From NCBI GenBank assembly GCA_029561305.1, contig JAKQJG010000222.1, positions 1 to 64,000 of the forward strand: DNA of 64,000 nt, given 5' to 3'. Below, one piece after another: positions 27,249-57,727 of this stretch. The stretch is from Bacteroidota bacterium (GTDB lineage Bacteria; Bacteroidota; Bacteroidia; Chitinophagales; Chitinophagaceae). Each line of letters begins with the position of its first letter. Position 1 is the first letter of the stretch. The position numbers and the translations under genes are program-made. The notes beneath the pieces are model-generated. The model searched no databases, was not told where the DNA came from, and worked only from the letters and a program-made list of their open reading frames with translations.

Positions 27249-28390
27249 TTACAATCCAAATGCTTTATAAAATGCCTGCAAAATATCTGTCCGTACATTC
27301 ATCTTTATCAATTGGCTGTTTGTGCCATCCGGCGTTAAGCGGTTGCTGAGAAAAACATACACTAAATTATGTTTCGGGTCAGCCCATACACAAGTACCGG
27401 TAAAACCACTATGACCAAAAGCGGCAGGTGAGGCAGATAAAGCAGGGTAAGGTTCATCTCTTTTGTAGTTATCTTTTTCGGGTTTATCAAACCCCAACCC
27501 ACGCCGGCTGTTTTTATTGTGATAAGCTGTGAACAGGTCAATGGTTTCTTTTTGCAGATATCTTTTGCCATTATAAGTACCGCCGTTCAACAGCAGCTGC
27601 ATGATGGCAGCCATATCATACGCATCACTAAACAAACCGGCATGTCCTGCCACCCCACCAAACATCGCAGCACCGGGATCATGCACGTTCCCACGTATCA
27701 ATTGTTTCCTGAAAACAGGTTCTTTTTCAGAAGGTGCAATTTTTTTTACCGGCATATAGTTTGTTGGCTTAAAGCCTGCCGTAGCTAAATTCATTGGCCT
27801 GTAGAAAGTGGTTTGTATGTATTTATCCAGCGTGGTTCCTGTGATGGCTTCCACCACTTTTGCTAAAAAAATAAAATCATTATCACTGTACACATACTTG
27901 CCAAGGATACCAAGGGGGCTTTGCAATATGCGACTGAACATGGTATCTGTCCAATCGCTCTTCATATAAAAACTATCAGCCACTTTTATAGAAAAAGTAT
28001 CAGACTCCATAGGAGAAAAAAGATCTGCCCGTGCAGTTCCCGATGAATCAATAATTTCTTTGTAAAAAGGAATAAAAGCAACCAGGCCTGCCTGGTGCAG
28101 CAGGATATCTTTTATCAGCAGTTTCTCTTTATTGGTTCCTTTTACTGCTGGCAGATAGTCACCCAGTTTTTTATTTAAAGAGATCTTTCCCTGGTCATAA
28201 AGTTTCATAATGGCCAGCGTAGTGGCACAAACTTTTGTAACTGAAGCCATATCATAAACTGACTGAACAGATACGGGTGCAGCAGTATCATAATTAAAAT
28301 TGCCAAATGCTTTATGATAGGCAATACGGCCGTCTTTTACAGCCAGTATCACACAACCGGGCGTAGCTTTTTTTGCAATGGCATTTTCGG
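27249..28390 (-). CDS. serine beta-lactamase-like hydrolase, C-terminal half of a frameshifted GH3 fusion
   Basis: This frame encodes about 380 residues of a beta-lactamase-related serine hydrolase. SVTK in YDMASVTKVCATT is the SxxK nucleophile motif, YSDNDF fits the YxN motif, and GHSGFTGT the HxG/KTG-like motif. It has no ATG before the SVTK region. The only near start is GTG at 28352. The open frame continues upstream through NPFRIIDSLAENAIAKK, exactly the linker expected after a GH3 domain, up to the poly-T run near 28434-28442. I take it as the second half of the gene at 28391-30145. One added T there restores a single frame of 965 codons. Confidence 0.85.
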
Positions 28391-30145
28391 CTAGCGAGTC
28401 AATAATACGGAAGGGGTTATTTGTTTTTGGGGCAAAAAAAAACCGGTGCTGATGCCGCTGCCAAATTTATATTGATCACAAACCGTTACAGGCAATTTTC
28501 CTTTGGCCAAGAATTTACCTTCCAGCAAATTGGCTGCTGCCTGCTGCACGATGGGATCATCTTCATAACAGGCAATTAAGTTGCCGGCACCGCAAAAGTT
28601 TTTAATAGCATAAGGATTGCCAAACACCAGCGTGGCACTGTTGGTTTCTTCCTGTAGCTTTTTTGCCAGGCTCACTGCCGGTACACTGATGCCAAAATTA
28701 TTCTCTGGCTTGCGGTTGTAATTGTGGATACCGATGATGACTTTATTATATTCTTTTAATTGTGCTACCAATGAAGCAATACGGGCATTGTTTTGTTTGT
28801 AGTCAAAATAATAGACGTCAGCGCCATAACTTTCTTTCAGCTTTTTTGCAAAAAGATTCTCTTCATTAATCCCAATAGCGATATAGGCGATCTTATTACT
28901 TTCAGGTGCTGTTAACGGGAAAAATCTGTCGTCTTTTTTTTGCAATACCGTAAGGGCATTTTCAGCGATCAGTTTTTTCATTTCCGGTACACCCTTGTTG
29001 AGGTCTTCAGTAATATTTGTCAGTGAAATGGCTGGTATTTTTTCTCCGCCATACTGGTATTTTGCCAGCAATACTTTTTTGCAGTGGTAATTAATGTCAT
29101 CCCAGCTTAATTGTTTTTTATTGATGGCTTCTTTAATTTTTTTTATTGTTTGCTCTACATCCGGTGGCAGGCAAAGCATATCATTACCTGCAATGATGGA
29201 TTGAACGGACGCTTCCCCACCGGGAAAAAATTTTTGTACGCCCTGCATTTCAATTGCATCTGTAAATGTGAGTCCCTGGTAGCCGAGCCCGTTCCTCAAT
29301 AAACCGGTTACATTTTTTTTTGAGATAGACGTAGCCCTGTTGGCGCTGCTGTCAATAGCCGGTATATACAAATGTGCCACCATCACACTGCCTACTCCTG
29401 CTTTAAATATTTCTTTAAATGGGTACAGTTCCAGGGAATCCAGTTGTTCCATTGATTTGTTTATCACCGGCAGATCAAGGTGTGAATCCACTGCTACATC
29501 CCCATGCCCGGGAAAATGTTTGGCACAGGCCATCACGCCTGCATCCTGCATTCCTTTCATGTATTCAATGCCGTAAGCAGCCACTTTATATTTGTCTTCT
29601 CCAAAACTGCGGTCGTTTATTACCGGGTTGTTGGGATTGTTATTGATATCAACAACGGGTGCATAGTTAACGGTAATACCGAGCCGCTTACATTGCTCGG
29701 CAACTAATTTGCCGTAATCATACACAATATTTTTATCTTCCACAGCACCCAGCATCATCTGCCTTGGCAGTGCCTGCACGCTGTCAAATAACCGCATGCC
29801 CACTCCCCATTCACCATCAATGCACACCATCAGGGGTGTTTGTGCCATGGCCTGCAGTTCATTTACAATGCCGCCCAGTTTTACCGCACTGCCCTGGAAA
29901 AGACATATACCGCCAACATTAAAACGTTTAACTTTTTCTTTTACCAGCGAATCGAAATATAAGGCTGTCTTTGTTTTAAAATCATAAGATGAAAGACGCA
30001 GCACCATCAGTTGTGCAATGCGTTGATCCGGCGTAAGAGAGTTCAGCACACTATCTGCCCACAGCGCTGCTTTTGGATGGATGGTCTGTGCTTTTGCAAC
30101 AATACTGATGGTTACAAGAAAAAGTAAAATGCCTTTTTTTATCAT
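28391..30145 (-). CDS. glycoside hydrolase family 3 (NagZ-like), N-terminal half of a frameshifted fusion
   Basis: Exported protein of 584 aa: signal peptide (MIKKGILLFLVTISIVAKAQ), then a GH3 domain. The NagZ-type motif KHFPGHGDVAVDSH (209-222) supplies the general acid/base His-Asp pair, and FTDAIEMQG places the nucleophile at Asp296. A C-terminal alpha/beta sandwich follows (to about 565). The frame ends soon after GSGISTGF in a short odd tail (FLPQKQITPSVLLTR). In related bacteria this protein is about 960-1000 aa and continues into a beta-lactamase domain, which here lies in the next frame. It probably acts on peptidoglycan or its fragments in the periplasm. Either a sequencing error, a real mutation or slippage explains the split. 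Confidence 0.88.
   Translation of the reverse strand: MIKKGILLFLVTISIVAKAQTIHPKAALWADSVLNSLTPDQRIAQLMVLRLSSYDFKTKTALYFDSLVKEKVKRFNVGGICLFQGSAVKLGGIVNELQAMAQTPLMVCIDGEWGVGMRLFDSVQALPRQMMLGAVEDKNIVYDYGKLVAEQCKRLGITVNYAPVVDINNNPNNPVINDRSFGEDKYKVAAYGIEYMKGMQDAGVMACAKHFPGHGDVAVDSHLDLPVINKSMEQLDSLELYPFKEIFKAGVGSVMVAHLYIPAIDSSANRATSISKKNVTGLLRNGLGYQGLTFTDAIEMQGVQKFFPGGEASVQSIIAGNDMLCLPPDVEQTIKKIKEAINKKQLSWDDINYHCKKVLLAKYQYGGEKIPAISLTNITEDLNKGVPEMKKLIAENALTVLQKKDDRFFPLTAPESNKIAYIAIGINEENLFAKKLKESYGADVYYFDYKQNNARIASLVAQLKEYNKVIIGIHNYNRKPENNFGISVPAVSLAKKLQEETNSATLVFGNPYAIKNFCGAGNLIACYEDDPIVQQAAANLLEGKFLAKGKLPVTVCDQYKFGSGISTGFFLPQKQITPSVLLTR
28434..28442 (-). other. nine-T homopolymer at the GH3/beta-lactamase frame break
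   Basis: On the minus strand the GH3 frame reads GGT TTT TTT TTG CCC. With ten Ts it would read GGT TTT TTT TTT GCC CCA and continue into NPFRIIDSLAEN and the hydrolase. The break thus coincides with a slippage-prone run of nine identical bases. Confidence 0.85.
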
Positions 30146-57692: not shown

Positions 57693-57727
57693 AAAAAAAA
57701 ATCCTTCTCATAGAGAAGGATCTTTTA
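57693..57727. terminator. bidirectional terminator
   Basis: ATCCTTCTC (57701-57709) and GAGAAGGAT (57713-57721) pair around a three-base loop, with A-run before and T-rich tail after. It ends the plus-strand cluster and the minus-strand porin gene. Confidence 0.9.

Follow-up and report, generated by a model that had tools for sequence, protein, structure and literature searches.

A run of nine Ts between the GH3 and serine hydrolase frames of a Chitinophagaceae gene is a candidate slippage site that recurs in relatives

The window, by which is meant the whole 64,000-nucleotide stretch of Bacteroidota DNA analysed here, carries on its minus strand a gene in which a GH3 frame and a serine hydrolase frame overlap across a run of nine Ts (Table 1). 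PF00933 and PF00144 are both matched in this gene, but in different frames. The run lies close to the end of the GH3 frame, in the codons GGT TTT TTT TTG; past it, the zero frame closes on the residues PQKQITPSVLLTR and stops after about 40–42 nt, and with one extra base the next stop is found 1182 nt on. The −1 frame opens 24 nt upstream of the run and reads NPFRIIDSLAENAIAKKATPGC..., with no stop until 27249, and the joint frame obtained with one added base has 966 codons including the stop, i.e. 965 aa. Checking the frames and the position of the run verified the original prediction that the GH3 frame is broken just past nine Ts and that one extra T would join it to the hydrolase. The same prediction had put the stop 15 residues past the run, where 13 residues after the Leu codon holding the last T were counted.

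No start codon was found upstream of the run in the hydrolase frame. An ATG ahead of the SxxK motif had been claimed to be missing altogether; one does exist, two codons before it (YDMASVTK), and is the first ATG of this frame. A start there would leave the protein without an export signal or its N-terminal part, and, with signal peptides judged by eye, neither this ATG nor the GTG in Table 1 would yield an exported protein.

Table 1. Features of the GH3–hydrolase gene, in window coordinates
Feature	Coordinates	Strand	Evidence or remark
GH3 (NagZ-type beta-N-acetylglucosaminidase-like) frame, 584 aa, ATG at 30145	28391–30145	−	PF00933, E 6.3e-74
T9 run (U9 in mRNA) in the interdomain linker, candidate slippage site	28434–28442	−	Recurs in relatives
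Zero-frame tail past T9 (remainder of Leu codon, 13 residues, TAG), end of the short product	28391–28433	−	
Class C beta-lactamase-like serine hydrolase, −1 frame, stop at 27249	27249–28466	−	PF00144, E 5.8e-43
SVTK (SxxK motif), with YSD and HSG motifs downstream	28233–28244	−	Hydrolase frame
GTG, first start codon of the hydrolase frame, downstream of T9	28350–28352	−	No signal peptide behind it (by eye)
In-frame A9 within the GH3 domain, second run of nine in this gene	29313–29321	−	

The N terminus of the GH3 frame is signal-peptide-like as judged by eye. Further along, the frame contains CAKHFPGHGDVAVDSH, a KHFPGHG...DSH motif that we take to be the NagZ-type catalytic motif and whose K, H, and D columns are invariant across 19 aligned sequences. 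The closest solved structures to the GH3 part are GH3 beta-N-acetylglucosaminidases, and its match to NCBIfam PRK05337 falls below the cut-off (163 vs 207 bits). For the hydrolase part the closest solved structures are a carboxylesterase and a PBP-related protein, and the NCBIfam entry matched is PBP4B, under its cut-off.

A/T runs of nine are rare in this DNA. The window holds only 3, against 11.06 expected from shuffles; the third, besides the two in Table 1, is at 57693–57701. Five were found in 244,156 sampled bases of the source genome, and the window gene is the single case in those bases of a frame broken at a run of nine by the criteria used here. The junction of the two domains is the place where runs of nine recur in relatives.

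The GH3 protein was searched against 93 genomes of the window's genus, many of the genomes compared throughout being fragmented assemblies, and 89 of these matched at E ≤ 1e-60. Of the 92 loci reaching the junction, 66 are fused, 11 are broken by a −1 shift, and 13 have no hydrolase nearby. The other two are a single-frame gene with an in-frame TAG in its GH3 part (L163), which was counted as unbroken, and a locus with an apparent +1 shift arising from scaffold Ns (L064), which was dropped. Also dropped, before any of the counts given here, were the 13 loci without a nearby hydrolase (nine GH3-only, four at contig ends), L061, in which the GH3 part is cut off ahead of the junction, L220, at a contig end, and second copies of a locus (L002, L205–L207, L215, L227–L231, L233, and L234); L062 was kept for its junction despite an N join within GH3. 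For the genus, 78 two-domain loci remained usable: 11 are broken and 67 are in one frame, L163 with its internal stop among them. The earlier statement that relatives carry both domains as one protein of about 960–1000 aa proved right.

All 11 breaks lie at the junction, are −1 shifts, and fall on an A/T run of 9 or 10. Such a junction run is present in 22 of the 78 loci, 11 broken (T9 in seven, A10 in two, and A9 in two) and 11 unbroken (T9 in three, A9 in five, and A10 in three); in one broken A9 locus, L057, the run sits at the start of the hydrolase domain. Junction runs of Ts are exactly 9 long in all 10 loci that have one, whatever the frame state, and T7, T8, and T10 do not occur. In every broken locus one extra base links the frames across more than 1,100 nt, and the unslipped frame stops within 12–177 nt. 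Inserting one base into the 11 unbroken run loci leads to a stop within 3–51 nt, and removing one leads to a stop within 6–174 nt. Early stops of this kind are ordinary and nothing special to run-bearing loci, the median distance to a stop after a slip being 33 / 27 nt in the 55 fused loci without a run.

The SxxK, YS[ND], and H[ST]G motifs of the hydrolase are present in all 11 broken loci. A separate hydrolase gene with its own start was considered and rejected, because in each of them the hydrolase frame begins no more than 30 nt upstream of the run, and in L052 and L058 inside the run itself; by eye, none of the 11 has a signal peptide ahead of the hydrolase domain. Two separate genes with normal starts in relatives, which the original prediction had named as speaking against it, were not what was found for the ortholog. 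Nine genomes of the genus have a GH3-only gene, evidence that the short form can stand alone, and eight of them lack a homologue of the hydrolase at E ≤ 1e-15.

Runs of nine elsewhere in the same 78 genes served as a control. There are 27 of them, 22 in the hydrolase and 5 in the GH3 part, and none is broken, whereas 11 of the 22 junction runs are (Fisher p 2.4e-5, with related loci counted separately). All but 1 of the 22 in-frame A9 runs of the hydrolase fall at one Lys-Lys-Lys motif, about 300 nt past the junction start and usually before Leu-Gly (e.g. L017 and L035). This A9 occurs in 21 loci, is never broken, and is missing from all 11 broken loci. As a second control, codons were swapped among equal amino acids in the 67 unbroken genus genes, leaving the proteins unchanged (200 shuffles). 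At the junction 11 runs are observed against 6.1 ± 1.4 expected, a number reached in none of the 200 shuffles, whereas the GH3 part has 3 against 12.2 expected, and no shuffle gave as few. The hydrolase part of the genus shows no avoidance of runs (22 observed vs 19.6–19.7 expected from the codon shuffles). Because A9 is not avoided there, and because one A9 lies in frame in the GH3 part of the window gene, runs of nine As may slip little or harmlessly in this genus. Relaxed selection in the linker may account for part of the excess at the junction, and no more than 22 of the 78 genus loci have a run there at all.

A quick maximum likelihood tree of the 78 proteins, built with the junction excluded and carrying a long-branch warning at L058 and L052, requires frame state to change at least 6 times and run state at least 12 times. 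The window gene forms one clade with L007 and L008 (SH-aLRT 99), whose GH3 parts are 70–72% identical to that of the window, and all three are broken at T9. Purifying selection acts on the hydrolase within this clade, where its pN is 0.16–0.23 against a pS of 0.74–0.76, and pS between the three members spans 0.69–0.78, these measures being used because saturation caused dN/dS to be printed as 0.000. Synonymous sites are therefore about saturated in the clade, while T9 stayed and the hydrolase was constrained. In these genes Phe is encoded by TTT in 76% of cases and Leu by TTG in 22%; given this codon use and the saturation, TTT TTT TTG would not be expected to persist by chance in all three genes. 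The run of L024 and L027 stands in a different codon register from that of the window, so their break seems to be a separate event at a run of equal length.

A set of 80 named loci, which also covers genus members, contains 73 fused loci, 2 broken ones, and 5 without a nearby hydrolase, two of the five ending with their contig. Both broken loci (L067 and L078) belong to genus members, G050 and G012. One named Chitinophagaceae metagenome genome has an in-frame A10 at the GH3–hydrolase junction (L124). A metagenome record titled Streptomyces griseus (L109) encodes a Chitinophagaceae-like GH3 protein at 58% identity and is probably mislabelled or from a mixed bin. In the window's own family 394 genomes were searched and 381 matched, and no junction break was seen in the six short frames outside the genus that were taken from the matches listed: L179 is GH3 only, and L180, L181, L182, and L184 are in frame at the junction and reach contig ends. 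The sixth, L183 (genome G359, incomplete), is in frame at the junction and has a frameshift later, at an A8 in the hydrolase, which could be error or decay.

A draw across the class comprised 149 genomes, from which six short frames were examined, with six further short ones (G477:C38, G529, G537, G553, G554, and G569:C3) left out. Five of the six (L210–L214) are GH3 only without a hydrolase match, and the sixth, L209 from genome G609, is broken on A11. In the family of G609, referred to here as the second family, 78 of 87 genomes had matches. Of the 39 distinct loci examined, nearly all of them best hits to two run-bearing members, 26 carry A9–A12 at the junction (23 fused and 3 broken), a frequency that may be overstated because the loci were chosen by similarity to run-bearing members. 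The three breaks are on A10 twice, in the −1 direction, and on A11 once, in the other direction (L209). The residues encoded by the run vary (QKKN, KKKK, QKKK, EKKR, and IKKK) while the A run persists, and in L225, L232, L290, L300, and L301 an A run is found elsewhere in the linker. The 36 fused genes of this family have 24 junction runs against 15.1 ± 2.4 expected, with none of 200 shuffles giving as many; their GH3 parts have 1 run against 3.5 expected, and their hydrolase parts have none against 6.4, with none of 200 giving as few. No junction run was found in 40 fused loci, one each from 40 other families; these controls were picked among long open frames and are fused by choice, so that only the absence of the run is a result. 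GH3 identity between the genus and the second family is about 44%, and it is from this distance and the absence of runs in the 40 other families that the cases in the two families are taken to be probably independent. Across both families all 14 broken loci have runs of 9–11.

A run of at least nine at the boundary of two useful products is the pattern of programmed slippage. We regard it as probable, short of firmly established, that the T9 of the window is such a site, most likely transcriptional and of the dnaX/mxiE/tssM type, yielding GH3 alone and the fusion; one gene probably makes both the short and the long protein. The original prediction had offered three options, an assembly error, a true frameshift, and a slippage site with two products. 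The last is the best supported, because the run recurs, all junction breaks fall on such runs, and the hydrolase is kept. RNA polymerase would make, on T9, some mRNAs with a changed number of Us. The templated U9 mRNA would be read to the TAG 40 nt on, giving an exported 584-aa GH3 protein alone, and an mRNA with one extra U would enter the hydrolase frame and give an exported 965-aa GH3–serine hydrolase fusion. Relatives would use the opposite layout, with the fusion in frame and a slip at T9 or A9–A12 soon stopping translation to leave GH3 alone. In either layout one gene would supply both forms, in a ratio set by the run, and both would probably be useful in peptidoglycan turnover. The run, the frames, the recurrence of runs and breaks at the junction, and the selection on the hydrolase are observed here, and from them we infer slippage, its transcriptional nature, its rate, and the usefulness of both forms. 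A broader proposal is advanced more tentatively, as quite possible: that the switch in this putative peptidoglycan-turnover enzyme evolved at least twice, independently, in different families of one class, on T and A runs and in both layouts, to set the GH3:fusion ratio, with selection keeping the run while the frame drifts around it.

The same two products would come from programmed −1 ribosomal frameshifting on U_UUU_UUU or U_UUU_UUG (or A_AAA_AAA) into the hydrolase frame, acting at a different level. The heptamers U_UUU_UUU and U_UUU_UUG stand in the required register in the window, and all 11 broken genus loci, like 13 of the 14 broken loci overall, shift by −1. The 75 nt of RNA downstream of the T-run broken loci fold with a mean z of −1.78 (7 loci), against −0.28 for 56 loci without a run (p 0.0025, the group having been defined post hoc); the corresponding 75 nt of the window have a z of −1.32. 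However, runs of at least 9 are present in all 14 broken genes though a heptamer would suffice, and the four A-run broken loci of the genus have no downstream structure (mean z +0.54). Moreover, the hairpins predicted at T-run loci differ and none is shared, the 90 nt of the window folded together with the run are ordinary (z 0.42), a Shine-Dalgarno-like match within 18 nt upstream of the run is lacking in 11 of 11 broken loci, and L209 requires the opposite direction. The polymerase is favoured over the ribosome because of the run length in all 14 broken genes and the lack of downstream structure at the A-run loci, and ribosomal frameshifting is considered unlikely. Folding in search of a conserved RNA stimulator gave a weak and unshared signal in the T-run broken loci, which is retained as evidence for ribosomal frameshifting. 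Stable hairpins are predicted just after T9 in L024, L027, and L032; those of L024 and L027 are alike and lie over the codons for Gly-Leu-Asp-Pro-Val-Lys-Leu, a likeness that may only reflect the protein sequence.

The breaks could instead be tolerated frameshifts, in which a leaky run rescues nearby indels and breaks become fixed by drift, the short product serving no purpose. The breaks are scattered, with the six or more changes in the genus tree, GH3-only genes show that some lineages live without the hydrolase, and a largely similar pattern would be expected if frameshifts at a leaky run were neutrally tolerated. We nevertheless judge this explanation improbable: the excess of junction runs is seen also in fused genes, where no rescue is needed, and T9 was kept in the window clade despite its saturated synonymous sites. 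Homopolymers are hypermutable, and a third possibility is phase variation at the level of DNA, in which the genomic run changes length and the hydrolase is switched on or off. L209 (A11, broken) and the 95%-identical L216 (A10, fused), one A apart in the run, are a pair of the kind expected. It is given only a slim chance here, as the junction T runs of the genus keep to nine in both frame states (10 of 10), and the A11/A12 differences among the closest relatives in the second family (L226 and L275–L280) are AAG/AAA substitutions, not indels. An assembly or sequencing error at the homopolymer is very unlikely and was rejected as the main reading, even with a fragmented source genome (4.83 Mb in 443 contigs), the L183 frameshift as proof that such breaks occur, and the possibility that L209 alone is an error, because T9 and the break are common to three species of one clade and breaks recur in other lineages and the second family, besides which none of the 27 further runs of nine in these genes is broken and the window gene is, by the criteria used, the sole break at such a run in the sampled bases.

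Runs of at least nine fit the slippage reported on 9A/9T, which gives a shortened product of Thermus thermophilus dnaX and a lengthened product of Shigella mxiE (PMC1088944 and PMC5009743). In dnaX nine As shorten the product of a full frame, the outcome predicted for the fused relatives, and in mxiE a run of Us joins two frames into a longer product, the outcome predicted for the window. Transcriptional slippage is also described for tssM in Citrobacter rodentium and Yersinia pseudotuberculosis, with opposite layouts in the two species, and in C. rodentium it was followed on A11 by blot, GFP, and mass spectrometry, at 20–25% frameshifting (PMC4256274). The likeness lies in a poly-A near the end of a frame, where insertion gives the long form, and in a relative with the reverse layout, where a slip gives the short form. 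The window's counterparts would be mxiE and C. rodentium tssM1, and those of the fused relatives dnaX and Yersinia tssM3. The dnaX and mxiE genes are unrelated to this one and tssM encodes a type VI secretion protein; slippage was demonstrated for them, in tssM by experiment, whereas here it is predicted from sequence, on T9 or A9–A12, for a putative cell-wall enzyme.

The domain architecture itself is known from RmNag3 of Rhodothermus marinus, a GH3 beta-N-acetylglucosaminidase with a beta-lactamase domain, which according to the 2020 paper is the sole characterised enzyme of this kind and which its authors suggest is associated with peptidoglycan turnover (PMC6987092). The domain order is identical and a signal peptide is predicted there too, but neither slippage nor two products are described in the accessible sections of that paper, and a count of the word "frameshift" in it gave none. 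GeneTack clusters resemble the present comparison in using conserved frame transitions across genomes as evidence, and the words glycosidase, beta-lactamase, and glycosyl hydrolase are absent from the available main text (PMC3711429). Among the matches listed in a search of the open-access literature, with supplements and closed journals outside its scope, no report of slippage or frameshifting in the GH3–beta-lactamase family was found.

To our knowledge, few chromosomal housekeeping genes are known to make two proteins by slippage. In this enzyme family, dozens of natural variants (T9 and A9–A12, fused and split, run present and absent) are available in related species, so that the use, rate, and evolution of slippage are directly testable. 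Annotation would probably label such genes as broken or as two genes, and the fusion would be lost.

The ninth GH3-only genome of the genus, G075, differs from the other eight in having a hydrolase homologue, 42% identical, that possesses a start of its own and, as judged by eye, a signal peptide. The GH3-only gene (L148) coexists there with this separate 605-aa protein (L208:1480–3297), which has a signal-like N terminus followed by a stretch resembling the second GH3 domain (by eye) and then the hydrolase. The arrangement looks like a split of two functions after duplication.
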